From the IMG/VR virus record IMGVR_UViG_3300042546_000752, positions 1-30,374 of that record: 30,374 nt of DNA. The stretch is one strand, 5' to 3'. This document shows, one piece after another, positions 927 through 14,763 of this stretch. Source of the stretch: a virus. Positions within the stretch are counted from its first letter, which is position 1, and the number at the start of each line of letters is the position of its first letter. The notes beneath the pieces were generated by a model that saw only the letters and a list, made by a program, of their open reading frames with translations, searched no databases and was not told where the DNA came from. Position numbers and translations under genes: made by a program.

Positions 927-1916
927 TTACCTCTCATCTAATTTAACATTACCTGAACGGCGACCTGCAGTCGTTGTTCCTTTCGGAAGCGCTGCTCTTG
1001 GTCTTGGTCCTTCAAAACTCATTTTATCAACATGTTGAACTGAGACCCCTTTTTTACCTGCTGCAGATTTAACAATATAACTTGCAGCATGCGGAGAACC
1101 TTCAACAAATTTACCGCGACCAGTTGTTGCTTCTTTACGAACAAAATGATTTAATTCTGGATGTGTATTGTGTACTGTGTCTAATGCTTTTTGGGCTTTT
1201 TGTTTTAAGCCCTGCAACTCTGAATCTTTTGCAGTACGCATTGCATCCAAATGCTTACCTGCTTGTTTTATATGAGACATAATACTTGAATGTATTTCGT
1301 CTTTTTTCTTTTGAGGAAGTTTAGCATATTTTGGATGATTATTCAACATTTCTTTTGCAGCATGATGATGTACTGCACTATTTTCTTCTGGTCCACCTGA
1401 CATTAATTGTGAACCACCACCCTTTTTCATAGACAAACGAATACCTTCGCCTGTTTTAGATTTTGGATTCATGATCGCAATATCAGTTTTAGAAGTTGCA
1501 CCTTTTGTTGCACCATACTTTTTCCAAGTTTCTGAGATTTCACCCTTACCACCACCTGTCACTTTTGCTTGGTGTTTTCCTTTTACGGCTGCTTTAAAAT
1601 CAGGGTGAGTTGCTAATGAATGTATTGTATGGATAGCGTTTTCGTGCTCTGAGTGATATGCTGCTTTATGCGCAGCAGTTTTTTTACCACCAACAAAACC
1701 TTCATGATGACCAGCGTTATCAAAATGCAATGGATGTTTTTTATTTGTTTTGGCTTTACTGAATTCTTTTTGCATTGCCTCTTTGTCGTGCGCAATGCCT
1801 AATCCATTCATATGGTTCCAGATTCTAGCGTGAGCGTGTTCGTCGCTATATGCGCCAACTTTTGCCTCAATTAATAAATCTTCATTGAGTTGTTTAAACT
1901 GTAAAAATGTTTTCAT
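927..1916 (-). CDS. Putative capsid-targeted PD-(D/E)XK-like protein
   Basis: This 329-aa protein is very rich in His, Lys and Gly. Its N-terminus MKTFLQFKQLNEDLLIE|A resembles T4 internal-protein leaders, which begin MKT[YF] and end in a prohead-protease site [LI]-x-E. Candidate cuts follow E12 and E17. The centre has SKTDIAIM (142-149) and, 16 residues on, LSMKKGGGSQLMSGGPEE (161-178). This D-x(n)-S-x-K-K pattern resembles the core of PD-(D/E)XK nucleases, with D145 and K164 as putative catalytic residues. A conserved-looking EATTGRGKF follows at 262-270. It overlaps the preceding 51-aa gene by ATGA. Neither nuclease activity nor packaging is proven; it could be a catalytically inactive core protein. 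Confidence 0.7.
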   Translation of the reverse strand: MKTFLQFKQLNEDLLIEAKVGAYSDEHAHARIWNHMNGLGIAHDKEAMQKEFSKAKTNKKHPLHFDNAGHHEGFVGGKKTAAHKAAYHSEHENAIHTIHSLATHPDFKAAVKGKHQAKVTGGGKGEISETWKKYGATKGATSKTDIAIMNPKSKTGEGIRLSMKKGGGSQLMSGGPEENSAVHHHAAKEMLNNHPKYAKLPQKKKDEIHSSIMSHIKQAGKHLDAMRTAKDSELQGLKQKAQKALDTVHNTHPELNHFVRKEATTGRGKFVEGSPHAASYIVKSAAGKKGVSVQHVDKMSFEGPRPRAALPKGTTTAGRRSGNVKLDER

Positions 1917-2068
1917 AGTTTTGGCGGCTTTCTTCTCAAGATTTTTTTATTGAGACGCTTTTTAATTTGTAAAGCATAAACGTCAGATGGGTTTGTTAAA
2001 GAAGGTACACCACCTGCTGCAACAGACACTGCTGGTGCTTCCTCTTTTACTTTAATTCTCTGAGACAT
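1913..2068 (-). CDS. Small 51-aa basic protein
   Basis: A short reading frame starting with ATG at 2066-2068 (MSQRIKVKEEAPAVSV...) and ending with a TGA that forms an ATGA overlap with the next gene. It reads through AGGVPSLTNPSDVYALQIKK (18-37) into a strongly basic tail ending RRKPPKL. It overlaps the preceding 129-aa gene by 22 nt and fills the otherwise empty space between two head-cluster genes. The coupling at both ends supports translation. IKVKE|E near the N-terminus could be a prohead-protease-type site. Function is unknown; a small head protein is the natural guess from position. Confidence 0.68.
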   Translation of the reverse strand: MSQRIKVKEEAPAVSVAAGGVPSLTNPSDVYALQIKKRLNKKILRRKPPKL

Positions 2069-2436
2069 TTTACTGCTTCCTGATCTAAGCCAATATCGTT
2101 TGACCGCAAATTTTTACCACGAATACCAAAAACAATTTCTGGCATGTAATTTAAAAAGACTAAAAATGGTTTGATTATTTCATAGTCTTTTTCTTCTAAT
2201 TTATAAAATAATATTCGAGTTGCACCTTCAACACCAAAAACATTATAAAGAACAGTAATATGATTTAAAATTAAGCGACCCTTAAATTCGCCAGAATCTC
2301 GATACTTTGTGATTAATCTTTTTATATACTGTATGCGGTTCAAATCTTCTTCGAACTCGCTCATTACAGCATTTGGTTTGCTATAACATTTTATAGCATA
2401 TAATAAAAAGTTTTCATCACACAAGTTTTGAAACAT
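2047..2436 (-). CDS. Conserved T4-like phage protein (DUF7207-like)
   Basis: A 129-aa, mostly alpha-helical protein. Its middle reads YIKRLITKYRDSGEFKGRLI followed by NHITVLYNVFGVEGATRILF, and it continues into YMPEIVFGIRG. I recognise this as a conserved protein of aquatic T4-like phages in structural regions, usually left as a domain of unknown function (DUF7207 by recollection). It contains no signal peptide, membrane span or catalytic motif. It sits 12 nt after the 2449-2838 gene. A virion or assembly role follows from position only. Confidence 0.75.
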   Translation of the reverse strand: MFQNLCDENFLLYAIKCYSKPNAVMSEFEEDLNRIQYIKRLITKYRDSGEFKGRLILNHITVLYNVFGVEGATRILFYKLEEKDYEIIKPFLVFLNYMPEIVFGIRGKNLRSNDIGLDQEAVKCLRELK

Positions 2437-2448
2437 TCAATTTACCAA

Positions 2449-2838
2449 CTAGTAATCGGCAGTTCTTCTCGTGCGTAATAAAAATTGTGAAACGCCATAA
2501 TCTGTTGGATTCTCATCCTCAGATTCTATTTCTTCCAACTCTTCATCATCAACGCCGAGATAATCTAACTCGTCTTCATCTACAACATTTGCATAAACAT
2601 CATACCCTTGCGGAGTAAGATCGTAAGTGATATACAAATAATGACCTGTGTAATCGTTTGCGCCGTCTTTCAGTTCAAACAAAAACTCATCATCTTCTTT
2701 TAGATTTATGACTGGCAAAACAAGACCATTTTGACCCAGCGTCATAGCAAGAACGCTATACGCTGTGCCAAGATCTAAAAATGGTTTTGCTAGAAATAAA
2801 TCTAGATCAGTATTTAATTTTTCAAGTTCTTTAGTCAT
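2449..2838 (-). CDS. Acidic conserved hypothetical protein
   Basis: A 129-aa, strongly acidic protein. A beta-rich middle (YLYITYDLTPQGYDVYANVV) leads to a run of Asp and Glu at about residues 85-110 and a short basic end (LLRTRRTADY). The ATG overlaps the stop of the 543-aa gene upstream by ATGA, so translation is probably coupled. I do not recognise a family with certainty. The cluster of scaffold-like genes suggests a head-related role, which is only contextual. Confidence 0.7.
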   Translation of the reverse strand: MTKELEKLNTDLDLFLAKPFLDLGTAYSVLAMTLGQNGLVLPVINLKEDDEFLFELKDGANDYTGHYLYITYDLTPQGYDVYANVVDEDELDYLGVDDEELEEIESEDENPTDYGVSQFLLRTRRTADY

Positions 2839-4466
2839 TTTTGTGGTTGTTTCTTTTTGCCCATTGGATGGAATACAACTGGATCTGCTTGCTTCTTAGT
2901 CATTGTCTTACCAGCAAACATCTTTTCGCGCATCTTCTCGCGCAATTCTTCTTCGCCGAGTTTAACACCACGAGCGCGAAGAACGTCTTTGCGCGTAATC
3001 AAATGCTTTGGATGTGCCTTTGCAGCAAGATTTTTTTCTTTTGCTGTCTTTGGTACTGTACCGCCCTTTGCTTCGCTCATTTCAGCAAACTTCTTTTCGA
3101 CGTCGTTATACTGATCTTTTGCGACAACAGAAACTTCGTGGGCTTCTTTATCTGTAAGAGTTGGTACGCGATCCTTTACGAACTCTGGGCTCAACATTTT
3201 TGGTTCGCCTGGTGGAATGAACTTCCACGCCTTACCGCTAACTGTTGTACCTGAGAAGTAACGAACTTCTTCTCTCACAGTTGGAACCATTTTACGCACG
3301 TCACGCTTCACATTTTCTTCGTCATCATCTGCTGGTGTGAAATCTTTTTTCTTTGCGTATGGATCCATTTTATATGTTCTTGCTCTTGGTGCTGCAATAT
3401 CTTTTTCATAATTTTTTCTTGCAACTTTATTGAATGCTTTTTTCCAATCAGCAGCACCTTCTTCAACTGTTTCTACTTCTTCTTTGGCTAGTTTAGCAGT
3501 TGCCTTTTCAATACCACCAAGACGCTTTTTAGCACCTTTTCTGTAATCTCTCGCTAAATCCATATATGCTGCTTTATTTTCTGGATCTCTTTTTCTTGAG
3601 CCCGACGTTTCAAAACTGGCAGCAATTCCTGTCTTTGCGCGCACTTGATTTGCTGCTTTGTTGACATAAGAAGCCAATGTTGATTTCTTGAGTTCATCAA
3701 TGTGCTCAACTTCTTCTTTCGTTAGTTTTTCTTTTGCCTTTGCAACTCCAGCTTCGCGTCTGTCCATTTTCGCAAGAGCCCATGGATAGGTCTTTTTCAT
3801 ATATTCTGGATCAGAGCCATCACGACCACCATAACGCATTTGATGATAGTCGTACGCTTTTTTCATTTCTTTACTTGCTTTTTTAGCATAACTTTGCAAA
3901 GTAGATTTTTTGAGTTCATCGACTTGTTGGAATTCCTCATACATGTGTCGAGGTTCTTGATCATTAATTACATGATGTGTATATTTTTTTCCGTTGTGGG
4001 TGACATTAACATGTGATTCTTCTTCACCCCCAGAATCTACAATAGCCTGAATCTCATGAGGTTCAAGATGATCATTATCGCCTCGTTTTAGAGCTTTATG
4101 TACAACATCGTCAGTTAGATCATGGTGCGAACGCACCGTATATCCGTAAGATTTACCGTTGACTTTTCCTGTATAATGAAAGAGTCCACCTTCATCAATC
4201 TGCTCGGCTTCTTCATTCATCTCACCTTCCATATAATTGGCGGCAGTAAGAACATAATCTTCAGCAAGAGTAATCTTGCTTTGTACCCACTCAGGTAAGT
4301 TTGTTGAGTCGTCAAGCATGTCGTGCAACTTCTGAGCATTTGTAATAATGCTCTTTAATTGCGACTTTGCCATGTCGCCTTCGTAGTCGTATTCGCGCTC
4401 GTCTTTTTCTTCTGTGAAGTGTGTCTTAACGAGAAGATTAGCGAAAATATCTTTATAGTCACTCAT
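2835..4466 (-). CDS. Repeat-bearing head/scaffold-like protein, 543 aa
   Basis: A charged protein with four parts. Residues 30-84 form a helical domain I recognise from phage scaffold-region proteins (AKSQLKSIITNAQKLHDML, then LPEWVQSKITLAEDYV). Residues 93-175 carry GGLFHYTGKVNGKSYGYTV and surrounding sequence. Residues 182-255 and 256-335 are two diverged copies of a 74-80-residue unit beginning [VI]DELKKSTL.SY..KA and ending KL.KEEVE. A basic C-terminal part follows (HLITRKDVLRARGVKLGEEE). Units are separated by acidic EEVE-x-[VI]-DE linkers resembling prohead-protease sites. AAGG precedes the ATG. It is probably an internal head or core protein, inferred from composition and neighbours; no enzyme motif is seen. 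Confidence 0.78.
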   Translation of the reverse strand: MSDYKDIFANLLVKTHFTEEKDEREYDYEGDMAKSQLKSIITNAQKLHDMLDDSTNLPEWVQSKITLAEDYVLTAANYMEGEMNEEAEQIDEGGLFHYTGKVNGKSYGYTVRSHHDLTDDVVHKALKRGDNDHLEPHEIQAIVDSGGEEESHVNVTHNGKKYTHHVINDQEPRHMYEEFQQVDELKKSTLQSYAKKASKEMKKAYDYHQMRYGGRDGSDPEYMKKTYPWALAKMDRREAGVAKAKEKLTKEEVEHIDELKKSTLASYVNKAANQVRAKTGIAASFETSGSRKRDPENKAAYMDLARDYRKGAKKRLGGIEKATAKLAKEEVETVEEGAADWKKAFNKVARKNYEKDIAAPRARTYKMDPYAKKKDFTPADDDEENVKRDVRKMVPTVREEVRYFSGTTVSGKAWKFIPPGEPKMLSPEFVKDRVPTLTDKEAHEVSVVAKDQYNDVEKKFAEMSEAKGGTVPKTAKEKNLAAKAHPKHLITRKDVLRARGVKLGEEELREKMREKMFAGKTMTKKQADPVVFHPMGKKKQPQK

Positions 4467-4467
4467 T

Positions 4468-5196
4468 TTACTTACCTTTTCTTTGAGTTAATAATTGTTT
4501 TAGTTTTGCTCTTGCTAAATTACGAGCGCGACGAAAACCATATGGATGTTTTCCAGCAGGGGCATTTGCTGGTTTTGTTTTAACTGGTCCACCAAGAATT
4601 GTTTCTGCTTCTTGTTTTGTTGCTTCATCAACAACGACAACTTCTTCCTGCATCTTACGCATTTTGCGAGCGAGAGAGGCATAATGACCATATGCTGTAC
4701 CTGCTTGACGCTTTGCTTTCTTTTCAGCCATCTCTTTGTCGATTAGATCTTGACGAACTTTCTGCTGCTTTGGTAACAATGCTTCATCAGTTTGTTCAAC
4801 ATTTTCACCAAGACGACCAGCCTTAATCGTTCCACCCGCTTTCACATAAGAAATAATGTCACGATTAGTTTCTAATCCACCACCAAGACCTTCTCCACCT
4901 TCGCGGCGACGTCTTCCCATTTCACGAACGCGCTCTGAAGAAGAAACAAGTTCTTTGTTTTTCTTCGAATTTGCAACAGCAGCAATAGCAGCCATACGTG
5001 CCTTTTTCTTATTAATGTCACCAACATCTTTCTTGGCTTGAGCGACGCTCTTTTGTGCGCCCTCATGACCAATGCTCTTCAGAAATTCTTGGAACTTTGG
5101 ATTTTTCGCATGAGTTTTCTTCAGTTTGCTCTTGAGCGCTTCGGAACCAGAAGTAAAAACCTTATGCCAAGCAGCATTTTCGTTAATATCGTTCAT
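4468..5196 (-). CDS. Basic head-cluster protein, 242 aa
   Basis: A lysine- and arginine-rich protein. The N-terminal third (AWHKVFTSGSEALKSKLKK, then KFQEFLKSIGHEGAQKSVAQ) is helical. A glycine/arginine stretch follows (MGRRRREGGEGLGGG), then two acidic linkers, ENVEQTDEALL (about 130-140) and EEVVVVDEATK (about 184-194). The very basic tail is AGKHPYGFRRARNLARAKLK. The linkers match those in the 543- and 787-aa neighbours. GAGGAT precedes the ATG by 9 nt, and the stop is 1 nt before the 543-aa gene. High positive charge suggests DNA contact inside the head. The family is not recognised. Confidence 0.72.
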   Translation of the reverse strand: MNDINENAAWHKVFTSGSEALKSKLKKTHAKNPKFQEFLKSIGHEGAQKSVAQAKKDVGDINKKKARMAAIAAVANSKKNKELVSSSERVREMGRRRREGGEGLGGGLETNRDIISYVKAGGTIKAGRLGENVEQTDEALLPKQQKVRQDLIDKEMAEKKAKRQAGTAYGHYASLARKMRKMQEEVVVVDEATKQEAETILGGPVKTKPANAPAGKHPYGFRRARNLARAKLKQLLTQRKGK

Positions 5197-5214
5197 GCGA
5201 ATATCCTCGGTTAA

Positions 5215-5748
5215 TTAAACGCCCTTGAGCGTTGTGGCAACCATCCAGTTAAGTTTACCGAACTCTTCAATCTTGGCTTGCAAGAAGTTGGAGAATCCAA
5301 TTTCGTTGGCAGCTTCGGCAGCTGCATAAAGCGTCTTCATTTCGCGAATGAGTTTGCTCATCTCATTGTTTAGATTCAAAAGCATTTCGCGTGGTGCAAG
5401 CATTGTAGAAGTATCTTCTACGATTGAAGACTTACGAGCAAGCGTTGCTGGTGAAAGTATTACATATCCACCAAGGATACGAATATGTTCAGCGTGCGGG
5501 TCAACTGACTCGTACAAACCCTCATAAACTTTCTTGAAAAGTTCATGGTATTGTGGGAAGTTTGCGCCGTCGACATTCAAATGATAGGTATGAGCCTTCA
5601 AATAAACGCCATAAACGTCGTTTAGAGCCTTATCAGCCATTGTGACAAGACCTGCCTTTTGTACTTCTACATCTTCTTTTAACTTCGCAGCCATAACAGA
5701 CTTTGCTGCGCCAGCTACTGAAAGTAGTGATTTATCTTTAATGAACAT
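5215..5748 (-). CDS. Dps-like ferritin-superfamily protein
   Basis: This 177-aa four-helix-bundle protein resembles Dps, the dodecameric iron-storing and DNA-protecting protein. Aligned to E. coli Dps, H56 (YHLNVDGANF), H68 (YHELF), D83 (ESVDP) and E87 (HAEHIR) fall at the exact spacing of ferroxidase residues H51, H63, D78 and E82, followed by IRILGGY. The equivalent of D67 is K72, and the usual Trp after the first His is Leu, so the iron site may be altered. The C-terminal helix ends FGKLNWMVATTLKGV. A roughly 30-residue N-terminal extension holds AKLKE|D, a possible prohead-protease site. GGAG precedes the ATG, and an AATAAATA late-promoter-like box ends 27 nt upstream. Family call is good; virion location is inferred. 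Confidence 0.82.
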   Translation of the reverse strand: MFIKDKSLLSVAGAAKSVMAAKLKEDVEVQKAGLVTMADKALNDVYGVYLKAHTYHLNVDGANFPQYHELFKKVYEGLYESVDPHAEHIRILGGYVILSPATLARKSSIVEDTSTMLAPREMLLNLNNEMSKLIREMKTLYAAAEAANEIGFSNFLQAKIEEFGKLNWMVATTLKGV

Positions 5749-5774
5749 GAAATTTACTCCTGGTTAGGTTCTAT

Positions 5775-5782
5775 TATTTATT
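5775..5782 (-). promoter_or_regulatory. Late-promoter-like box (AATAAATA) before the Dps-like gene
   Basis: AATAAATA matches the T4 late -10 consensus TATAAATA at 7 of 8 positions. It lies in the 36-nt gap between the 787-aa gene and the Dps-like gene, 27 nt before the ATG, leaving a leader of about 20 nt that includes GGAG. Confidence 0.65.
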
Positions 5783-5784
5783 TG

Positions 5785-8148
5785 TCACTCAATCTCATCA
5801 TTAAATTCTTCTTTAAATGCTTCGTTGAAATCTACTGATTCACGACGCAAATCTTTGTCTGCTGTGTGGTATGTTTTACCCTTCGTAATATACGAATTCA
5901 CACGAGCATGACCCCATTGTTGTGGGGTTGTTCCTGGACGGTGACCCGAATTCCAAGCCGCAACTCCACGGTTATACACTTTACGAAGTGTTCCGAGAGA
6001 AACACCCGACTTCTTGGCTTTTGCAGCCAATGAAGTATCGGCTTTACCTTCTTCGATTGCTTCTTCGGCAACTCTTGGTAGTTCTCTGTATGATTTTGCT
6101 AGAGTTTTTGAAGGTAGTTTCTTAGCAGCTTTACGACCCATTTGAAGCGCAGATCCAGCAAAAGGAACTTTGCCGCTAATTGCAGCATTGACACCAGCCT
6201 GACGCATTACAGCATTTTTCTTTTGTTTATTAACGTCAATTCTTTCGTCTAAATGAGTTTCTTCTGCATACACAGTTCGAACTCTTTGTGCGTTTGGGCG
6301 CATTGAAGTGATTCTGGTTTGCTTATCTAATTTTTTAAAGAATGCTCTTGCATGAGCATGACTAAATGCTGGTTTTTTCACCTCTGGTTTCTTTCTTTTC
6401 ATAAAGTCCAAGAAACCTTCGCGCTGAGTTTGAGGTTGTTCAACTTCTTCCTTACGCATCTTGGATAAATTATCATGGAATGCTTTTGCTTTTACGGGAT
6501 CTGTTTTTGCAAGTTTGTCGTAGATCTTTTTGTTGTTCTTATCAACTTCTGTTTGTGTGCCTAAACGCCACTCTGCGCGCCAGTATGATGGCTTGAGTTT
6601 CTTTTGGGCTTCATCGAGTTCGACTTCTTCGTTTGTCTTAGCGGCTTGCTTCTTTGCATATTCTGCACGAGCCTGAGCCAGCATTTCCTCGCCACGCTTA
6701 CGGCTGGCATCGCTTGCAGTTTTTTCTCTGTCAAATGCACGACCCAACTTTTCTGCTGCACTCATACGGCGAGCTTCATCAATAACAGGACCATCATGTT
6801 CAACGCTATCGCCAACATATGTACGACCTGGTTCATATACAGGAAATGGTCGTGCTGGTTGAGATGCATTGAACTTTTTTGTCAATTGTTTTTGAGCAAA
6901 TTTTCGTGCTTTATTAGTGTTGCCAAGTTTTCTGAGTGGATTTGGGTCACCAGCTTTGTCTGTTTTTACGGCAGCGTCAACGGTTCTCATCGTAAAGGGT
7001 CTTTTTTCTTGACTGACTTTTAGATACTTTTTGTAATCGACCTCATCCACCTGCTCGACTTCTTCATCCATTCGCTTCTTTACTGCAAAACCGCCTTTAG
7101 GTGAGAGTTTCTTGTTATGCTTTTCTGGATCGTAAATATTTGCAGTACCATCTTTTTCTGACTTTTCAGTTTTTGGATTGTAGTGCATTACGCTACCAGA
7201 GCGACCGAAAGAAACTTTCTTTTCTTCGTGCAAACGAACATTGCTAATATGAGTTTTGTATAGTGGCTTGTGTGTGCCGCCACCAAGAGAAGATTGACTG
7301 TGATCGCTGCGGAAATAAACGTGATTATCTTTAATCTTTTCTACAGTGCCAGTATTTTGACCGCCTTTAATTGTTACAACGCGATCGCCAACTTTTGGTT
7401 CAGGGCGAGCTTTATTCATTGCAGCCAACACACCTGCGACTTTACTTTCGTTTTTCATCGTTTCTCCCAAACTCTTAAAATACTGTACTTGTCTTTCTCT
7501 TTTCATTGCGCCAGCTTTTGTATCGTATGTACCAAGATTGCGTCCTGTCTTTTTAGACACAAGACGAAACTTGCCATCAACTTTTACAATTGACTCGTCC
7601 ATCTTTGGACTTACACCTTTGAATTCTCGCTTGGCGTCTTCATTGTCCCAATATGCACAACACATTCTTTCAGTTACGAAATCATGAATGTCTTCATGAT
7701 TGCAGTAGGCTTTAATCTTTACGTTAGCCTTTCCTGGTAGCGTTACCAAGTCAACATGCTTTGCCATTTCAACATAGGCTTCGTTTGGTGCTTTCAAACC
7801 ACCAAACTCGTTTAGTTCGTTTTTATCAACTGGCTTCTCTGATTCCTTTACCCAGTGAATGCAATTAGCGCAGTTTGTTCCTTCAATCTTTTCTGGTGCA
7901 CCTTCAATTACAATACCAATTTCCTCACTAAACATTTTATGAAAACGTTTAGTGTATTTGCTTGGTTTTGTTTTTGCAGTTGCATCGCCAGGAGCAGGTT
8001 TATATGCTCTTGAATCTTTGTCTGAATACTTGCTCATTTTTTTCCAATGAGCAGCGCGAGCCTTTGCTGTGGACGTGCTAAGACCAGCCACATACTTTTT
8101 AGGTAGCCCCGATTCTTTGTCCTTTGTCACTGAAGGAAACTTTTTCAT
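5785..8148 (-). CDS. Multi-domain head-cluster protein, 787 aa (DUF5872- and DUF5824-like ends)
   Basis: A mosaic of small phage domains joined by acidic linkers. Residues 5-70 resemble DUF5872 (SGLPKKYVAGLS, ARAAHWKKM, PAPGD, TKPSKYTKRF). Residues 88-170 hold a Cys cluster (C93, C96, C149, C163, C164) that could bind zinc or Fe-S. Residues 190-226 carry the phage motif SKKTGRNLGTYDTKAGAMKR and 250-307 a KOW-like module (VGDRVVTIKGGQNTGTVEKI). Residues 705-766 resemble DUF5824 (SGVSLGTLRKVYNRGVAAW, TTPQQWGHARVNSYITKGK). EEVEQVDE (362-369), EEVELDE (507-513), EEVEQ (567-571) and EETHLDE (629-635) punctuate it. It overlaps the upstream kinase fusion gene by ATGA. It is probably a processed internal head protein (inference). 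Confidence 0.78.
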   Translation of the reverse strand: MKKFPSVTKDKESGLPKKYVAGLSTSTAKARAAHWKKMSKYSDKDSRAYKPAPGDATAKTKPSKYTKRFHKMFSEEIGIVIEGAPEKIEGTNCANCIHWVKESEKPVDKNELNEFGGLKAPNEAYVEMAKHVDLVTLPGKANVKIKAYCNHEDIHDFVTERMCCAYWDNEDAKREFKGVSPKMDESIVKVDGKFRLVSKKTGRNLGTYDTKAGAMKRERQVQYFKSLGETMKNESKVAGVLAAMNKARPEPKVGDRVVTIKGGQNTGTVEKIKDNHVYFRSDHSQSSLGGGTHKPLYKTHISNVRLHEEKKVSFGRSGSVMHYNPKTEKSEKDGTANIYDPEKHNKKLSPKGGFAVKKRMDEEVEQVDEVDYKKYLKVSQEKRPFTMRTVDAAVKTDKAGDPNPLRKLGNTNKARKFAQKQLTKKFNASQPARPFPVYEPGRTYVGDSVEHDGPVIDEARRMSAAEKLGRAFDREKTASDASRKRGEEMLAQARAEYAKKQAAKTNEEVELDEAQKKLKPSYWRAEWRLGTQTEVDKNNKKIYDKLAKTDPVKAKAFHDNLSKMRKEEVEQPQTQREGFLDFMKRKKPEVKKPAFSHAHARAFFKKLDKQTRITSMRPNAQRVRTVYAEETHLDERIDVNKQKKNAVMRQAGVNAAISGKVPFAGSALQMGRKAAKKLPSKTLAKSYRELPRVAEEAIEEGKADTSLAAKAKKSGVSLGTLRKVYNRGVAAWNSGHRPGTTPQQWGHARVNSYITKGKTYHTADKDLRRESVDFNEAFKEEFNDEIE

Positions 8149-9599
8149 TTTGTTTCTTCTTGCACTGCAGTTGATGTTAAACCAATACCGCCTGTAGGCA
8201 CAGCACCCATTCTTCCATCAAAGTAACTGCTCATTCCAGACTTTGCGACAGAAACAGGAGTTAAATCTTTTAACTTCTTTTTCTTAGGCTTCTTATTTTC
8301 TTCTTCGCCGATGGTTGGCTCAGCAGACCTGGCAACGGCAATGCCGCCCCCTCTTGCATCTCCCGAATATCCTTCCAATGGACTCTGTTCTTTTCTTCGA
8401 ACGCCTTTCTTTTTATCTTCATCAGCGATTTTTTCAGCTTGCGAATAATCTTTAACATCATTTGTCACTTGTCCTGGTGTTAAATGTTTAATGAAATTAG
8501 CAGCGTCATCCGCGCCTGCCTCTAAAACTTTTTCGTCAAGAAAACGTTCAACACCTTCTGACAATTCTCTCAACCAACCTGCAATTTCACTCTTACGAGT
8601 TTCTTCAGCAATAATAATATTTTCTGAGTTATCGTAAATGAAGAATGTTTTGAATTGTTCAAAGAACAAATTCATATTTGCAACTGACGTTTGATACCGT
8701 TGTGAACGAACTTCTTCATTAAAGGTCTTTGAGCCTTTTGTGAGGCGGAAGTTGTTACGATTGCGAGAAACTTCATCTGAAGTATAGACGAATACCATGG
8801 CTGTATCATAACCCATGGCTTCAAGAATTGCTTTTGAAACGATAATCTTTTCTTTATTCTCAGCAGTGCCATTAATAATTACAGATGGATGATCTTCAAG
8901 TTCAAGAAGATTCTTCTGTTCTAGAATTGCTTTGTTTAATTTATCGAGACTTAATTCAATTAAATTGTGCTCATTGAACACTGAATGAATAAGAAAATCT
9001 TTACCGCTTCCTGGTCCACCAACAAGGAAAATTGCTTTATAACTTTCTTTTAGTTTACTCATGCCTGCTTTTACCTTGTCATGTATATGTGCGCCAAGTT
9101 TCTTGTCGCTATATTTTGAAATAAATTCGTCTCTTTTTCCAGCAGCAACTAATGCTCGATGTTTAGAAGCAGATTCTCCTTCTTCTCCTTCTGAATCTGG
9201 ATCGCGATGACCTGCTGATTTGACTTCTATCTTTTTAATTTTTGGGAATTCTTTTGCACGATACTTGTTCAATAACTCTTGATATTCACCGACACGATCC
9301 GAACCAGCATGAATCGTGACGTGAGTATGACCCTGCTTTTCCATATGCTGCATAGCATGAATGATGGTGCGGATCTTTGGGTGTGAAACGACGTTTGCCT
9401 TCGGAAATAGTTTACGAAGTGCATGAACTTTATCCCCATGAGACAAGGGATTGCTACGGCTATCTTGCGTGTGGGTTGGGAAAATATAGTGTGTCCCGCC
9501 TGTTTTTTCGGCGTGCTCCATCGCACCGTGGACGACTCTTCCGTGACCTTCTTCTGTTGGAGGGTTAAAACGACCCCATACTACTGTTGCTTTACTCAT
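8145..9599 (-). CDS. Cytidylyltransferase-like nucleotidyltransferase fused to a P-loop kinase
   Basis: The first domain (about 1-165) carries the nucleotidylyltransferase signature GRFNPPTEEGH (9-19) and a late SASKHR (143-148) in the place of the family's ISSTxxR. The second (about 185-335) starts with Walker A GGPGSGKD (194-201) and looks like a small ATP-binding kinase. A lysine-rich, low-complexity tail of about 130 residues follows, including RFLDEKVLEAG. Cytidylyltransferase-like proteins are known in cyanophage head regions; the substrate here is unknown. I start at the ATG at 9597-9599. A TTG at 9618-9620 would add 7 residues, but it lies only 7 nt from the AATAAATA box, whereas the ATG has the usual 28-nt spacing. 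A NadR-type NAD salvage enzyme is an alternative. Confidence 0.82.
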   Translation of the reverse strand: MSKATVVWGRFNPPTEEGHGRVVHGAMEHAEKTGGTHYIFPTHTQDSRSNPLSHGDKVHALRKLFPKANVVSHPKIRTIIHAMQHMEKQGHTHVTIHAGSDRVGEYQELLNKYRAKEFPKIKKIEVKSAGHRDPDSEGEEGESASKHRALVAAGKRDEFISKYSDKKLGAHIHDKVKAGMSKLKESYKAIFLVGGPGSGKDFLIHSVFNEHNLIELSLDKLNKAILEQKNLLELEDHPSVIINGTAENKEKIIVSKAILEAMGYDTAMVFVYTSDEVSRNRNNFRLTKGSKTFNEEVRSQRYQTSVANMNLFFEQFKTFFIYDNSENIIIAEETRKSEIAGWLRELSEGVERFLDEKVLEAGADDAANFIKHLTPGQVTNDVKDYSQAEKIADEDKKKGVRRKEQSPLEGYSGDARGGGIAVARSAEPTIGEEENKKPKKKKLKDLTPVSVAKSGMSSYFDGRMGAVPTGGIGLTSTAVQEETK

Positions 9600-9625
9600 A
9601 TTTTTACCATCTGTTGGCAATAAGA

Positions 9626-10795
9626 TTATTTATTCTTCCTTCCTTTTAGAAGATTTTGTCGCGCGAACTCTTCGCGATCGACTAATTTTGTGGGGTGACC
9701 ATTATGAACCATTACAAATCCCTCAGGCTTGGTAGCCTTACCTTCAATATGATGCTCAAATTCAGCGGAGGAAGATAACGTATTTACCAAAGCATTTTTA
9801 GCCTTTTGAATGGCGTGGTGGATTTTAAATGCTTGAGATAGATGGCGATGATTGCGGTTTACGTCGTTATTGAATGCATTAAGGGCTTCGTGTTGCTTTA
9901 ATTTACCTTTTTGAGTCTTTTTCTTCTCAATTTCATTCTCGAAACGATTGGAAACAAAGGAACGATAACCCTCTACGCTCGGTTTAGTACCTTCTCGGAC
10001 AGTATGATTGATGTATCGATCTAGGTGCTCGCCGTGTGAACGAACCACGTGATACATCTCAGGATGAGACGCCTGATGATGGCGAACTGCGGCTTTGAGG
10101 TAAGTATCGAACTCTTTTTTATTCTTTTCGGAATGTTCCGCAGGTTTAACGCCTGGGTGAATTAGATGAACATCTGAATGAGAACCGAACTTATCGTGGT
10201 CGACGTCGAATCCAGCGGTCATATCGCTTAAATCCGATCCGTGGTATTTGGTATGAACGACCAAACCGATATGAGCCTTGGCTATCTTTTGACCGTGTTC
10301 TGAATCTGTAGGAGTAGAATAGGTGATCGTATTTGGAGTGAAATGATATTTTCCACCCTTTTTAGCCACGTCACCTTTGGTATACATTAGGTCGCCTTGA
10401 TAGACGCCGTGTTTTGGAGCAACTTTAGGGAGATGGCGTAGTGCGGTTTTGAGTTTTTCAACTAAACCTGGAGCGTGACCGTGGTTCTTTTCGATATCGG
10501 CTTCGGTATAATTAATTTTGGGGCTTTTGTTAAATGCAGACTTGCTGGCTACGAAAAACTTGCCCGTTTGTGGATGACGACCAAATACGAGCGAAGGAGA
10601 TCCGTCGTACTTGGTCGTCACTTTTGTTGTATTGAACGCACCGTGAAGTTTGTCGTTCACTGCCGAGAGAGCATCAACTGTGTGGTGAAATCCAGACTCA
10701 CCACCGTGAATAAAGTTATCTTCAGCGTGTGTTAAGTGTGTTAGATGCTTAACTGGTTCAATTTCTTCCGTTAGATAATTTCTAAAAGATAACAT
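9626..10795 (-). CDS. Ligase-like KxDG nucleotidyltransferase with capsid-targeting-like leader (DUF6267-like)
   Basis: This protein has the core of covalent nucleotidyltransferases (DNA/RNA ligases): motif I TTKYDGSPSLVFG with nucleophile K62 in K62-Y-D-G65, GVYQGDLMY (130-138) at motif III/IIIa, PEGFVMV (E358) at motif IV and TKLVD (K370) at motif V. I recognise it as the T4-like phage family usually named DUF6267. The leader MLSFRNYLTE|E aligns residue for residue with the T4 internal-protein leader MKTYQEFIAE, whose E10 precedes the gp21 cut. The long His-rich centre lacks other known domains. It stands alone behind an ACTAAATA box. Adenylyltransferase chemistry is predicted; substrate and packaging are untested. 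Confidence 0.82.
   Translation of the reverse strand: MLSFRNYLTEEIEPVKHLTHLTHAEDNFIHGGESGFHHTVDALSAVNDKLHGAFNTTKVTTKYDGSPSLVFGRHPQTGKFFVASKSAFNKSPKINYTEADIEKNHGHAPGLVEKLKTALRHLPKVAPKHGVYQGDLMYTKGDVAKKGGKYHFTPNTITYSTPTDSEHGQKIAKAHIGLVVHTKYHGSDLSDMTAGFDVDHDKFGSHSDVHLIHPGVKPAEHSEKNKKEFDTYLKAAVRHHQASHPEMYHVVRSHGEHLDRYINHTVREGTKPSVEGYRSFVSNRFENEIEKKKTQKGKLKQHEALNAFNNDVNRNHRHLSQAFKIHHAIQKAKNALVNTLSSSAEFEHHIEGKATKPEGFVMVHNGHPTKLVDREEFARQNLLKGRKNK
9627..9634 (-). promoter_or_regulatory. Late-promoter-like box (AATAAATA) before the nucleotidyltransferase/kinase gene
   Basis: AATAAATA, 7 of 8 to the T4 late consensus, overlaps the last codons of the ligase-like gene and ends 28 nt before the ATG at 9599. 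Its spacing supports that ATG over the upstream TTG. Confidence 0.62.
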
Positions 10796-10831
10796 TAAAA
10801 TATACTCTCTCCGCTCTGTGGGATATGAGTA

Positions 10832-10839
10832 TATTTAGT
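10832..10839 (-). promoter_or_regulatory. Late-promoter-like box (ACTAAATA) before the ligase-like gene
   Basis: ACTAAATA keeps the TAAATA core of the T4 late element. It lies in the 54-nt non-coding gap after rmlD, 37 nt before the ATG at 10795, followed by GGAGAGAG as the ribosome-binding region. Confidence 0.6.
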
Positions 10840-10849
10840 TTCTTTTAGA

Positions 10850-11626
10850 TTACTGCTTCATCTTAGCAATTGCTTCAGCTAATGCTTCACGCACTGGACG
10901 CATTGCAGGATGGGCTGGAATTGTGCAGGTTGAACGCGAAGCCAACGTAGCAGCTTTGAATTCTTCCTCAGTAAACCACTGAACGTTCTCCAATCCCATC
11001 AATTCAACGAGTTCATGCATATTGACCGAACCTTCGTTGACGAGATTTACAGGACCTGTTTCGCCCTTTTCGATAAGATCACAGGCAACGCGAACGGCTT
11101 CGTCGAGATCCGTAAGAGAGTTTTGACCTGAGTCAATCAACTTACCAGTCTTGGCATAGTTCATTACCTTTGTGAGATAATTCTTCTTTTCATTCAAACC
11201 AGTGAATGGCATACGAATGCGAAACACAAGAGCACGATCCTTCAAGTAAAGATCTGAAACGCCCTTGGTAACGGAATAGATGCTACCGAAGTAATTTGGA
11301 TCTTCGTTTACATGAGTGATCTCGCCTTGGTAAATGCAACCGCTCGAGAAGTGAGCCAACTTTGTCCAGCCTCTGTTGCATGCATCAAGAAGTAGGGCTG
11401 GGAAAATGGCATTTGCTTCTGCCGTTTCTTCGCGTTGCAACTCACAAGCATCAACGTTTGGTGAACCAGTCATGCCTGCGCAATTTACCACCCACTGATA
11501 CCCACCGTCAGTAGCCTCTTCAAGAGCATCTTCATGGCTACAATAAGTTACAATATGACCTCGTTTGACGAGTTCATTGAAAACTTTTTTACCTGTCCAT
11601 CCACGACCAACAACTAGAATTTTCAT
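10850..11626 (-). CDS. rmlD: RmlD-like NAD(P)-dependent dTDP-sugar reductase (SDR family)
   Basis: An extended short-chain dehydrogenase/reductase that would reduce a dTDP-4-keto-6-deoxysugar. Residues 2-14 give the nucleotide-binding glycine motif (KILVVGRGWTGKK). The catalytic set is visible as HFSSGCIYQG and Y-S-V-T-K-G (YxxxK). At 258 aa it is a little shorter than bacterial RmlD (about 290-300 aa). I use the ATG at 11624-11626 because GAGGTG precedes it by the right distance; a TTG at 11638 is less likely. It follows rmlA with coupled spacing. With no rmlC nearby, the product may be a 6-deoxysugar other than rhamnose. Another SDR epimerase/reductase is possible. Confidence 0.82.
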   Translation of the reverse strand: MKILVVGRGWTGKKVFNELVKRGHIVTYCSHEDALEEATDGGYQWVVNCAGMTGSPNVDACELQREETAEANAIFPALLLDACNRGWTKLAHFSSGCIYQGEITHVNEDPNYFGSIYSVTKGVSDLYLKDRALVFRIRMPFTGLNEKKNYLTKVMNYAKTGKLIDSGQNSLTDLDEAVRVACDLIEKGETGPVNLVNEGSVNMHELVELMGLENVQWFTEEEFKAATLASRSTCTIPAHPAMRPVREALAEAIAKMKQ

Positions 11627-11634
11627 TTTACACC

Positions 11635-12513
11635 TCAACTATAACGACCCATAGATATGATTTTATCAAGATACTTACCATAATCAGATTTTGAATACTT
11701 CTTAGCGGCATTCGATAACTGATGTTGTGTAATCCAAGCATTACGATAAGCAATTTCCTCTGGGCATGCAATCATTGTGCCAGTTCTTCTTTGAACTGAA
11801 CCCACAAAGGTTGATGCTTCAGCAAGAGATTCAAAAGTGCCTGTATCAATCCAGGCAATACCACGATTTAAATATTCCACCTTACAGCTATGATCTTTCA
11901 TGTAGATATTGTTAATGTCGGTGATTTCAAGTTCACCACGAGCAGAAGGAGCAATTTGCCACGCATAATCTACGACGTTATTGTCGTAGAAATATAATCC
12001 TGTCACAGCATAGTTTGTTGGAGCAACTTTTGGTTTCTCAAGAATTGCAACTGGATCGCCGTGTTCGTTCACTTCAAGAACACCGAAACGTTCTGGATCC
12101 TGAACATGATAGGCGAACAAAGTGCAACCTTGATTGTTTTTGGCATAATTGAAGCGATTGATTAAATCATTTCCGTAGAAAATGTTATCGCCAAGAATCA
12201 AAGCAACTTCGTCTTTACCAATCCATTTCTCAGCAATACGAAAGCACTCAGCAATTCCTTTTGGCTCTAATTGAACTGCGTATGTAATGTTTAAACCCCA
12301 TTGCGACCCATCTTTGAGCAAACGTTTAAATTGCTCAGCATCATTGGGTGAATTGATGATCATAATATCGCGAATACCAGCAAGCATTAGCGTAGTGAGC
12401 GGATAGTAAACAAGTGGCTTGTCGTAAACAGGCAACAATTGCTTTGATGTCACTTCAGTGCATGGATACAAACGAGTGCCCATGCCACCAGATAAGATTA
12501 TTCCCTTTCTCAT
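11635..12513 (-). CDS. rmlA: Glucose-1-phosphate thymidylyltransferase (RmlA)
   Basis: Makes dTDP-glucose from glucose-1-phosphate and dTTP, the entry step to dTDP-6-deoxysugars. The N-terminal signature KGIILSGGMGTRLYPCTEVT and KQLLPVYDKPLVYYP is nearly canonical. LILGDNIFYG (metal/nucleotide site), EKPKVAPTNYAVTGLYFYD and the GELEITDINNIYM segment follow in the family order. At 292 aa it has full family length, with no sign of damage. ATG overlaps the rmlB stop by ATGA, so rmlB-rmlA-rmlD form one translationally linked unit. It competes for dTTP, which a phage cell would have in quantity. High confidence. Confidence 0.95.
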   Translation of the reverse strand: MRKGIILSGGMGTRLYPCTEVTSKQLLPVYDKPLVYYPLTTLMLAGIRDIMIINSPNDAEQFKRLLKDGSQWGLNITYAVQLEPKGIAECFRIAEKWIGKDEVALILGDNIFYGNDLINRFNYAKNNQGCTLFAYHVQDPERFGVLEVNEHGDPVAILEKPKVAPTNYAVTGLYFYDNNVVDYAWQIAPSARGELEITDINNIYMKDHSCKVEYLNRGIAWIDTGTFESLAEASTFVGSVQRRTGTMIACPEEIAYRNAWITQHQLSNAAKKYSKSDYGKYLDKIISMGRYS

Positions 12514-13457
12514 TTATACCACTCCAATGTTTTTTCAAGACCCACAATAATATCTGTTTTTGCTGACCAGCCAAGTTCCTTTTGAATCTTTTCAGCGTTC
12601 ATTGCATATCTAAAGTCATGACCTTTACGATCACTCACAAAATTAATCCATGACTGATACATGTTGATTGGTTTGCCCATAATGTCAAGAATCATAGCAA
12701 CCATTTCAAGATTACTTACTTCGTGACCGCCACCAATATTATATCGCTCGCCAGATTTAAAGTTTTTACCAATCTCAAGTAAAGCCTCGCAATGATCTTC
12801 GACATATAACCAGTCACGAACGTTTTGACCTGTGCCATAAACAGGAACAGGCGTATTGTTTTTGATATGCCGAATTACAGTTGGGATAAACTTTTCTTTG
12901 TGTTGACGAGGACCATAATTGTTCGAGCAATTGGTCACAATTGCATCAATCTTATGAGTATTTACATAAGACCGAACAAGATGATCGCTGGCGGCTTTAG
13001 TTGCCGAATACGGATTGCGAGGATTGTATGGAGTTGTTTCCATAAATGGAGGATCTTCGCGAGTCAAACTACCATATACTTCGTCAGTTGAAATATGAAC
13101 GAGTTTACCGCCATATTTTTTGATGCACTTTAAAATGTTGTGAGTGCCATTAATATTAGTGCTGAGGAAAACATCGTCACCGTCAATAGAATTATCAACG
13201 TGAGACTCAGCAGCAAAATGGTAAGTAATTTCTGGTTCATAACGATTGTACAGTAAATCTAGATTTTCATGATCTCTAATATCGACGTGTTTCAAAGAAA
13301 CACGCCAATCGTCCAAATATCCTTCTAGGTTTTTGACATCTGCTGCATAAGAGTTATTGTCAATAATAACAAGTTCGTCTGAGGGATATTTTTTAAGGTG
13401 AGCGATTACAAAATTAGAACCGATAAATCCCAAACCACCAGTCACAAATGTAGTCAT
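12510..13457 (-). CDS. rmlB: dTDP-glucose 4,6-dehydratase (RmlB)
   Basis: Converts dTDP-glucose to dTDP-4-keto-6-deoxyglucose. The protein begins with the Rossmann glycine motif VTGGLGFIGSNF, then has HFAAESHVDNSIDG, ISTDEVYGSL (catalytic Thr-Asp-Glu) and Y-S-A-T-K-A-A-S-D-H (YxxxK). RDWLYVEDHCEA and YNIGGGHEVSNLE complete the family set. At 315 aa it is near the usual length. GAGG lies 6-9 nt before the ATG. CATAAATA inside the end of the upstream gene, 33 nt away, could serve as a late promoter for the rml unit. Confidence 0.95.
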   Translation of the reverse strand: MTTFVTGGLGFIGSNFVIAHLKKYPSDELVIIDNNSYAADVKNLEGYLDDWRVSLKHVDIRDHENLDLLYNRYEPEITYHFAAESHVDNSIDGDDVFLSTNINGTHNILKCIKKYGGKLVHISTDEVYGSLTREDPPFMETTPYNPRNPYSATKAASDHLVRSYVNTHKIDAIVTNCSNNYGPRQHKEKFIPTVIRHIKNNTPVPVYGTGQNVRDWLYVEDHCEALLEIGKNFKSGERYNIGGGHEVSNLEMVAMILDIMGKPINMYQSWINFVSDRKGHDFRYAMNAEKIQKELGWSAKTDIIVGLEKTLEWYK

Positions 13458-13463
13458 AAAACC

Positions 13464-14375
13464 TCATCGTTCAACAATCACAACGTTTTTATTTATGCGC
13501 TTTTTATACGCAGCCAAAATTCTAATTCCTGGATATTCTTTTATACTCTTTCTCGTCTTATCATTACGAATAAAGAAGTATACATCTTTATCGCCTTTTA
13601 CATCTGTCATGTCAGTAATTACATGACTTACATCAATTACCAAATTTTCACCTTCTAATTTAAAGTCATCATTACTGAATGTCTTTGTGATCACAGCACC
13701 ATTTTGAGCAAGATCTGATCCGAATACAACATCGTTCTTTTCTTTGCGAGTTGATGTGACTGCAATATTAGGTTCAATTGTATAATAACTTCCTTGATTA
13801 ATCAACTTTGTTTGCTCATTTTTTATTGCTTTATCAATAATTTTTTTGGCTTCTTCGCTAAAATATGAGTCCGCAGATTCCCAAGTTTCAGCATCATCTT
13901 TTTTGATTGATACAGGAAACTTCTGCATTCTTTTATTCATAAACATTACATCTGCTTTTTTTCTTCCTGCAGTGTCCGCACCAACGGAACCCACAGAAGT
14001 GCAAGATGGTATTTTAAAGGTTTTATTTTTTCCTTTGAATACAATATTCACACTGCCCATTTTCTTTATGGTCTTTTGAACCATATCAACTAGGAATTGT
14101 TCATTTCCAACTCCAGCAGAGGCACCTCCCTGCTTACCCGCAGGTTTTGCCAAAATCACAAATTTCCCGATCTTCACTTTACCGACAGAAGATTCAGAAG
14201 ATGGGTTTTTATCGTAGTTACTTCCCTTTATGCTCTTATTTAAATTTTTAAGAACATCTATTCGATTTTCTTCCGTCAAAACCGCAATTTTGTTATTGCT
14301 AATTTTCTTAACATTTCTGTAACCAATAGAATTGACTAAAGCAATTACAGTTTCAATCGAAGTGATTTGCGGCAT
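13464..14375 (-). CDS. Putative PD-(D/E)XK-type endonuclease-like protein
   Basis: A 303-aa protein. The central part has GNEQFLVDMV (E92), GRKKADVMFM (D142) and, 14 residues on, PVSIKKDDAE (K158), giving the E...D...S-x-K arrangement of restriction-endonuclease-like folds. This D-x(n)-S-x-K-K block is like that in the 329-aa head-cluster protein. The N-terminal 75 residues look like a separate small alpha/beta domain; the C-terminus is basic (AAYKKRINKNVVIVER). It follows the zincin gene by 4 nt. No leader resembling the capsid-targeting type is present (MPQITSIETV). DNA cleavage is predicted from the motif alone. Confidence 0.66.
   Translation of the reverse strand: MPQITSIETVIALVNSIGYRNVKKISNNKIAVLTEENRIDVLKNLNKSIKGSNYDKNPSSESSVGKVKIGKFVILAKPAGKQGGASAGVGNEQFLVDMVQKTIKKMGSVNIVFKGKNKTFKIPSCTSVGSVGADTAGRKKADVMFMNKRMQKFPVSIKKDDAETWESADSYFSEEAKKIIDKAIKNEQTKLINQGSYYTIEPNIAVTSTRKEKNDVVFGSDLAQNGAVITKTFSNDDFKLEGENLVIDVSHVITDMTDVKGDKDVYFFIRNDKTRKSIKEYPGIRILAAYKKRINKNVVIVER
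13490..13497 (-). promoter_or_regulatory. Late-promoter-like box (CATAAATA) before rmlB
   Basis: CATAAATA matches the T4 late element at 7 of 8 bases. It lies within the last codons of the PD-(D/E)XK-like gene and ends 33 nt before the rmlB ATG, in the same distance range as the other boxes. Confidence 0.55.
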
Positions 14376-14379
14376 CTAA

Positions 14380-14763
14380 TCACTCGTAGATTCTTGGATT
14401 TTTTTTACCGTAGTTTCTCATAATAACTCCAGCAACACTATTTGCTTCGTTCTCAAATTCGCTACCAGTTTCACCAGCGTAGTTTGTTAACACACCATCT
14501 AGATTTTGTTTATGATGTACCATTTCATGGGCTAAAGTTCTAAGAACGTCAGCAGTATGTCTACCGCCTGTATTCAAATAGATCTTTTTCTCGCTCGGAG
14601 AATACCCACCAAAACTCTTATTTTCAGCAGCAATAGCCTTATCGGGAATTAGCACTAGTTCAGGCATTTCGCTTACGTTTAGATAATCTCTACAGTAATC
14701 CATAAAGTCGTCAATGTGACTTTTTGTTTCCTGTTCTTTTAGGTATTGCTTGTACTTCAACAT
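14380..14763 (-). CDS. Small HExxH zincin metallopeptidase with capsid-targeting-like leader
   Basis: A 127-aa predicted zinc protease. TLAHEMVHHKQNLDG carries HEMVH (HExxH) near residues 83-87, and ETGSEFENEANSVAG about 20 residues later offers the third Glu ligand of a gluzincin. KKIYLNTGG just before the helix fits the minimal zincin fold. The N-terminus MLKYKQYLKE|Q aligns with the T4 internal-protein leader (MKTYQEFIAE), with Glu at position 10. The start lies inside the end of the preceding zincin gene, a 53-nt overlap in another frame. Small metallopeptidases of this kind occur in aquatic T4-like phages; the target is unknown. Confidence 0.8.
   Translation of the reverse strand: MLKYKQYLKEQETKSHIDDFMDYCRDYLNVSEMPELVLIPDKAIAAENKSFGGYSPSEKKIYLNTGGRHTADVLRTLAHEMVHHKQNLDGVLTNYAGETGSEFENEANSVAGVIMRNYGKKNPRIYE

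Follow-up and report, generated by a model that had tools for sequence, protein, structure and literature searches.

We propose that short N-terminal leaders load a set of enzymes into the heads of a family of T4-like phages, starting from two genes in the 30,374-base virus record IMGVR_UViG_3300042546_000752 (a fragment, positions 1 to 30,374, called the window below). These genes encode a 389-residue DUF6267 protein with an RNA-ligase-like fold and a 127-residue zincin-like metallopeptidase; a third gene, for a 329-residue protein, has a related but longer leader. From the window and its relatives we conclude that a T4-type head-loading leader is present on enzyme cargo in the Kyanoviridae, with cleavage by gp21 and injection as steps that we infer. 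The leaders are very likely capsid-targeting sequences of the T4 type, which would bind the prohead core and be removed by a gp21-like cut, so that the enzyme stays in the head and enters the cell with the DNA. The window features concerned are these.

9626..10795, minus strand: DUF6267 protein of 389 residues, RNA-ligase-like fold, predicted leader-bearing cargo (open reading frame, PF19782, model)

10766..10795, minus strand: leader MLSFRNYLTE, codons 1-10 of the 389-residue gene, predicted cut after E10 (strict pattern)

14380..14763, minus strand: zincin-like metallopeptidase of 127 residues with HEMVH, predicted leader-bearing cargo (open reading frame, weak family matches)

14734..14763, minus strand: leader MLKYKQYLKE, codons 1-10 of the 127-residue gene, predicted cut after E10 (strict pattern)

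927..1916, minus strand: 329-residue protein with a possible PD-(D/E)XK-like stretch, probable cargo with a leader like that of T4 internal protein IPI (open reading frame, homologues)

1866..1916, minus strand: leader MKTFLQFKQLNEDLLIE, codons 1-17 of the 329-residue gene, predicted cut after E12 or E17 (both invariant)

The open reading frames and N-termini that a preliminary description had reported for these three proteins are all present exactly as described. The position-by-position match that it drew between the first two leaders is also there: both have aromatic residues at 4 and 7, an aliphatic residue at 8 and E10, reading LTE and LKE at 8-10. Aromatic residues at 4 and 7 occur in all three window proteins. 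The further claim of head targeting is supported for the first two leaders, which combine the T4 functional positions with unrelated carriers and virion presence in relatives; the case for the 329-residue protein is weaker, its leader being IPI-like. Mutations in T4 IPIII assign targeting mainly to residues 4 and 7, and processing to residues 8 and 10 (excerpt of PMC9026906).

A short N-terminus with many M, K and F residues could merely resemble a T4 leader, and the strict pattern used here, M..[FYW]..[FYW][LIVMF].E, was written after the first two window leaders had been seen. Some genome-wide matches are also doubtful, such as MKDYSHFMVE on the DNA helicase of phage C48C1. Against this, a scan that left T4 aside and covered 12 genomes or contigs, among them the window and one close relative with 3 of the matches, found the pattern at 20 of 1926 called gene starts; internal methionines within these open reading frames gave 2 matches in 7406 (Fisher p = 2.7e-12). 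The 1768 first-ATG N-termini held 17 matches, compared with a shuffled mean of 0.27 (standard deviation 0.53, maximum 3 in 2000 shuffles). At the shuffled rate, at least two matches among 33 genes has p = 1.3e-5, where 33 is an estimate and a greedy caller gave 45. The zincin leader is in addition constrained at the codon level: in 22 distinct zincin genes the ratio of nonsynonymous to synonymous polymorphism is 0.11 for codons 2-10, 0.17 for the mature part and 0.03 for positions 4, 7, 8 and 10 alone, a constraint to which overlap with the upstream gene may add, as the leader codons 14734..14763 of the window overlap the 3' end of a 219-residue gene in another frame. Chance resemblance is ruled out by the shuffles and the internal-methionine control, and we regard coincidence as extremely improbable.

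Applied to T4 as a positive control, the strict scan returned 3 of 272 genes (ipII, ipIII and 61.1) and missed ipI. A looser IPI-type pattern, fitted by the leader of the 329-residue protein, was found 7 times versus 1.57 in shuffles; 1 of 1000 shuffles reached this number, and several of the 7 resemble chance matches. T4 gene 61.1 (L214/NC_000866 18966-19130; 54 residues, hypothetical) adjoins the primase gene and begins with the strict leader MKTFKEFIKE; judged by this start, its product is possibly an unrecognised T4 internal protein.

Over all loci except T4, the distinct leader sequences number 79, including some truncated copies; they fall into 19 homology groups, three of which, each with a single member, are doubtful. 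The strict leader stands at a plausible start in 8 of the 9 Kyanoviridae isolates scanned whole, in a listing that omits matches preceded by more than 70 codons of open frame. In 36 representatives, aromatic residues at 4 and 7 are present by construction of the search; the residue at 4 is F in all 36, though Y and W were also allowed. The free positions resemble T4 MKTYQEFIAE, with K2 in 19 and S or T at position 3 in 22, and 18 of the representatives have T or S at position 9. The representatives exclude MNVYQEYIEE (S-SZBM1, 51 residues), MFKFGFFFSE (G009, 56 residues) and the C48C1 helicase sequence, and retain MGKFIDFVSE (L114, probably an internal start of a zincin). In C48C1 (L002 21622-21690, record 63448 onwards), the cytidyltransferase seems to begin earlier than annotated, at an upstream GTG that gives the leader IKNFSQYLLE.

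Comparison of homologous N-termini gave a divided answer: the leader is kept in close homologues of the window proteins, but the DUF6267 proteins of several cyanophages lack it. The 29 DUF6267 loci from viral contigs, which are not independent cases because several contigs are near-identical, comprise 18 with the strict leader, 5 with a near variant, 5 with a different N-terminus and 1 that is cut off. Among cultured relatives, Melnitz, a phage of Methylophilales H5P1, has a leader-bearing DUF6267. The leader is not a property of the DUF6267 family itself, a candidate explanation ruled out by the leaderless proteins of P-RSM6, S-SZBM1, S-CRM01, S-SM1, S-CREM2 and S-SCSM1; several cyanophages with a leaderless DUF6267 carry it on the cytidylyltransferase instead. 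The zincin comparison covers 83 loci, of which 3 come from isolates and the others are the best 80 of 93 from the scan. The strict leader is present in 46 (in one case at an internal start), a near variant in 2, and 35 are leaderless. Of the 47 loci with at least 57 percent identity to the query, window lineage included, 46 bear the strict leader and one, L084, a near variant; the 35 leaderless loci match at 53 percent or less.

Virion proteomes of related phages connect the leader with the particle. S-CREM2 has 52 of 219 annotated proteins detected in virions (PMC10665884, Table 3), and its strict leaders at annotated starts are on gp6 (an S-adenosylmethionine (SAM) hydrolase), gp14 (kinase-like), gp136 and gp154 (cytidylyltransferase), all four of which were detected (p = 0.0029 against the overall count; p = 0.00035 without named structural proteins). 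The relaxed pattern P2 adds gp30, which is not in virions (4 of 5, p = 0.012), and accepting L at position 4 brings in gp13, a virion protein, and gp175, which is not one (5 of 6, p = 0.003). One of three leader proteins was detected in virions of S-SZBM1 (140; PMC9146016, Table 1), one of two carries a virion label in the S-SCSM1 record (also excerpt of PMC9602691), and the single one of S-SM1 is reported in virions as T4-GC190 (excerpt of PMC3037559). The four proteomes pooled give 7 of 10 leader proteins in virions, with 1.85 expected (p = 4e-4). For this count the totals of S-SCSM1 (290) and S-SM1 (236) are approximated from 293 and 240 annotated features; S-SZBM1_140 fits only the relaxed pattern, and with that pattern applied to S-CREM2 too, gp30 would enter the count as a further protein not in virions (7 of 11). 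Two 51-residue frames are left out, one in S-SZBM1 that begins 12 codons inside annotated SSZBM1_14 and one in S-SM1 that starts with GTG and lies antisense inside gp17.

The virion-reported cytidylyltransferases of S-CREM2, S-SZBM1, S-SCSM1 and S-SM1, four of four checked, bear leaders: MKNFSSFLTE, MRFRQFIIE, MKSFLQFLKE and MKKFSAFLNE. S-CRM01 g130, a kinase that begins MISFDQFLSE, is presumably the kinase cited as a virion protein in PMC10665884 (excerpt). Leaderless DUF6267 proteins are not reported in virions in S-CREM2 (gp87), S-SZBM1 (141) or S-SCSM1 (257). In these three phages it is the tag, rather than the protein family, that goes with virion presence. A further virion-detected protein of S-CREM2, gp12 (L125 7704-10313), is labelled Cas9-like and has LRFASFMAE at residues 17-25; it matches PHROG 3561 of unknown function, a match that does not support the Cas9 identity.

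It could be argued that the leader is a real shared peptide that docks enzymes elsewhere, on a replication complex, a membrane or the tail, and not on the prohead core. Many leader-bearing genes do sit in the replication block, flanked by helicase and primase genes, rather than among head genes, and cleavage enters the argument only as an inferred step. Docking elsewhere is nevertheless hard to reconcile with functional positions that are the same as in the T4 leader and with the enrichment of leader proteins in virions. Some leaders, moreover, stand among head genes (S-CREM2 gp136 and S-SZBM1_191/192 are close to terminase genes), and we consider this alternative quite unlikely.

Several observations weigh against loading into the head. 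The virion support comes from related phages, and taken phage by phage S-CREM2 alone is significant among the four proteomes. S-SZBM1_191, S-SZBM1_192 and S-SCSM1_30 carry the strict leader and are unreported in virions; conversely, some virion proteins of the same clusters have no leader, for example S-SCSM1_92 and S-SZBM1_139. The virion authors themselves allow for contamination (excerpt of PMC10665884). A looser [LIVMF].E near the N-terminus fails to separate detected from undetected S-CREM2 proteins after removal of the named structural ones (7/28 vs 21/167, p = 0.14; 11/28 vs 40/167, p = 0.10), and therefore the full pattern alone is informative. HTVC008M, scanned whole, has no strict leader. 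Finally, the gp21 family PF03420 was not found in 7 of 22 related records (G001-G005, G011 and G012). Like the window, which is itself outside the 22, G012 and G001-G005 are fragments, the latter five being the nearest relatives in the search; G011 (265,680 bases) has a distant zincin without the strict leader. The family is present in the other 15 records, and the 10 isolates searched, of which T4 is one, all belong to this group.

In the mechanism that we propose, the precursors would bind the prohead core late in infection through F/Y4 and F/Y7. A gp21-like protease of the phage would then cut after E10 ([LIV]-x-E) and leave the mature enzyme inside the head, and the enzyme would enter the next host together with the DNA. 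For the window lineage, the predicted cargo consists of the RNA-ligase-fold enzyme (389 residues), the zincin (127 residues) and the 329-residue protein with its IPI-type leader. The most likely role of such cargo in the first minutes, although this is a guess, is protection of the infection through RNA repair and inactivation of a host protein. We would likewise guess that the RNA ligase acts against host RNA cleavage and that the SAM lyase (PF23780) of S-CREM2 acts against methylation-dependent defence; a link of the SAM enzyme to defence is suggested in PMC10665884 (excerpt).

It is also conceivable that the tagged proteins are head-core or scaffold components, which remain inside the head or serve assembly instead of being delivered. 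T4 gp21 also cuts core and shell proteins (T4 record). The window neighbours are lysine-rich with acidic repeats, and neighbouring virion proteins of similar composition (S-CREM2 gp155 and gp160, S-SCSM1 92 and S-SZBM1 139) have no strict leader; a blastp comparison of the window lysine-rich proteins with these four gave no significant similarity. A core or scaffold role, however, does not suit tagged enzymes that have no evident assembly function (the SAM lyase PF23780, the kinase-like protein, the nucleotidyltransferase and the ligase fold), and T4 IPI is injected (excerpt of PMC3012670). We judge this alternative rather unlikely and favour delivery of the enzymes with the DNA.

The lysine-rich proteins of the window (2835-4466, 4468-5196 and 5785-8148) contain repeated acidic stretches of the EEVExVDE type, some of which are followed by similar basic modules (LKKSTLxSYxxKA), and most of the stretches end in [VIL]-x-E. 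Such ends could be gp21-like sites, so that these may be multi-cut head-core proteins.

The 389-residue protein belongs to Pfam DUF6267 (PF19782; E 9e-97, 325 bits vs a curated cut-off of 27). A motif I KxDG with downstream EG(x)V and K motifs marks the RNA/DNA ligase covalent nucleotidyltransferase superfamily. The protein has KxDG (K62-x-D-G), QGD, EGxV and KL motifs, and K62, D64, G65, E358, G359, V361 and K370 are invariant in 20 DUF6267 sequences. Its AlphaFold model has a predicted local distance difference test score of 86 and, from residue 17 onward, is for the most part confident; the very low confidence at residues 1-16 (below 50) is expected of a detachable tail. In a VIA-align comparison, which covers only chains ranked high by Foldseek, the first 13 rows are all RNA ligases (Z 9.3-7.8) and the remaining rows shown are, by title, RNA, tRNA or DNA ligases or a ligation complex; only Naegleria and one trypanosome entry reach Z 8. 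The likeness to the Rnl2-like RNA ligase family thus lies in the invariant KxDG, EGxV and KL motifs and in the fold, with Z 9.3 over 184 residues to the Naegleria RNA ligase and Z 7.6 to T4 RNA ligase 2 (2hvq), whereas identity in the first rows is 11-13 percent and the helical region 223-343 of DUF6267 is large. Foldseek itself was weak (its best match, a DNA ligase, has E 0.015, no match falls below 0.001, and unrelated proteins occur further down the list), a DUF6267 sequence search against PDB sequences gave nothing convincing (best E 0.048), and a literature search returned nothing on DUF6267. The label "ligase-like" given to this protein earlier fits a modelled fold and motifs that are nearest to RNA ligases, with a putative activity.

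The 127-residue protein is a putative zincin by its HExxH motif, read from the sequence as HEMVH; the profile matches are weak, with DUF6782 at E 5e-4, below the curated Pfam cut-off, and the PHROG 87 metallo-protease family at E 1.6e-4. Zincin homologues in other phages are joined to nucleotidyltransferase-like sequence: L087 gives CTP_transf_like at E 0.005, below the cut-off, and a Flavobacterium phage homologue is annotated as a nicotinamide mononucleotide (NMN) adenylyltransferase. At L083 5001-5990, a zincin behind the strict leader MHTFKRYLQE is fused to a region of the PHROG polynucleotide kinase family (E 2e-7).

In the 329-residue protein, MKTFLQFKQLNEDLLIE places the [LI]-x-E sites later, with LNE at 10-12 and LIE at 15-17, a layout that is that of T4 IPI, MKTFKEFTSTTTPVSTITE. 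An alignment of 5 sequences shows both E12 and E17 unchanged. A fifth locus is identical to the window protein, and the four relatives have no M..F..F start, their longer N-terminus ending in [IL]-x-E (I-N-E or L-D-E) directly before the conserved domain; the P-RSM6 relative has MKSFVSFKSEAKLLEG. The TDIAI...IRLSMKK stretch is partly conserved, with no convincing family match and a poor model (predicted local distance difference test score 50).

Next to the DUF6267 gene lies a relative of the virion-reported cytidylyltransferases.

8145..9620, minus strand: cytidyltransferase with a zeta-toxin-like P-loop domain, 491 residues, TTG start, leaderless (PHROG 395 E 3e-36; Zeta_toxin E 2e-7)

This protein is similar to S-SCSM1_91, S-SZBM1_140 and S-CREM2 gp154, leader-bearing enzymes reported in virions, and its counterparts in the relatives G007, G008 and G009 begin MKSFLE(V/I)I(Q/L/E)E. 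A ferritin/Dps-like protein (5215-5748; PF00210 E 1.5e-16) stands in the cluster, and its first 25 residues end K-L-K-E. Between two leader-bearing genes, at 10850-13457, three genes resemble by eye enzymes of nucleotide-sugar synthesis of the deoxythymidine diphosphate-sugar type. The T4 late-promoter consensus, TATAAATA, has 1 match vs 1.33 expected, and the scan for promoters and terminators gave nothing clearly above chance.

The closest known system is that of T4 IPI, IPII and IPIII, which have an N-terminal leader of 10-19 residues with aromatic residues at 4 and 7, an aliphatic residue at 8 and E10. As in T4, one leader stands on unrelated mature parts, and a protease of the gp21 family is present in leader-bearing isolates. 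Unlike the small internal proteins of T4 (mature IPI has 76 residues of 95 encoded; excerpt of PMC3012670), most of the cargo described here is enzymatic (ligase fold, zincin, nucleotidyltransferase, kinase-like, SAM lyase), and many leader genes lie in the replication block. The virion-associated cytidylyltransferase or NMN adenylyltransferase-like proteins, kinases and SAM hydrolase of S-CREM2, S-SCSM1, S-SZBM1, S-SM1 and S-CRM01 share a related gene cluster and the same leader. They differ in that the available excerpts publish them as virion proteins and name no packaging signal, and in that the window has the leader on DUF6267 and the zincin rather than on the cytidyltransferase. A literature search on capsid targeting in cyanophages returned a T4 review only; it left subscription journals mostly uncovered, and an earlier description is possible. 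What is known is the T4 capsid-targeting leader; what is new is the enzyme cargo, its spread across the family and the shifting of the tag between genes.

Somewhat more speculatively, and with less than even confidence, we suggest that a Kyanoviridae head-loading code, M-K-[ST]-F-K-Q-F-L-[TS]-E, might mark exchangeable head-borne enzymes, and that the set of the window lineage might serve repair and counter-defence, as a kit that arrives at time zero. If so, the tag would move between genes, being on the cytidylyltransferase in cyanophages and on the RNA-ligase-like protein, the zincin and the 329-residue protein here. The RNA ligase would reseal tRNA cut by host anticodon nucleases and the protease would hit a host protein; in a relative, the kit would include the zincin fused to a polynucleotide-kinase-family domain, and elsewhere enzymes directed at nicotinamide adenine dinucleotide or SAM.

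Published work places cytidylyltransferases, kinases and a SAM hydrolase in cyanophage virions, and in one such study the authors allow for contamination (excerpt of PMC10665884). With a sequence tag whose mechanism is known from T4, that question becomes testable and exact mature N-termini can be predicted. The tag also offers a way to list the head-borne effectors of an aquatic phage family. Our analysis suggests that DUF6267, a ligase-like protein, may be delivered into cells along with phage DNA, and, more broadly, that in T4-like aquatic phages of this kind enzymes reach the host cell along with the phage genome.

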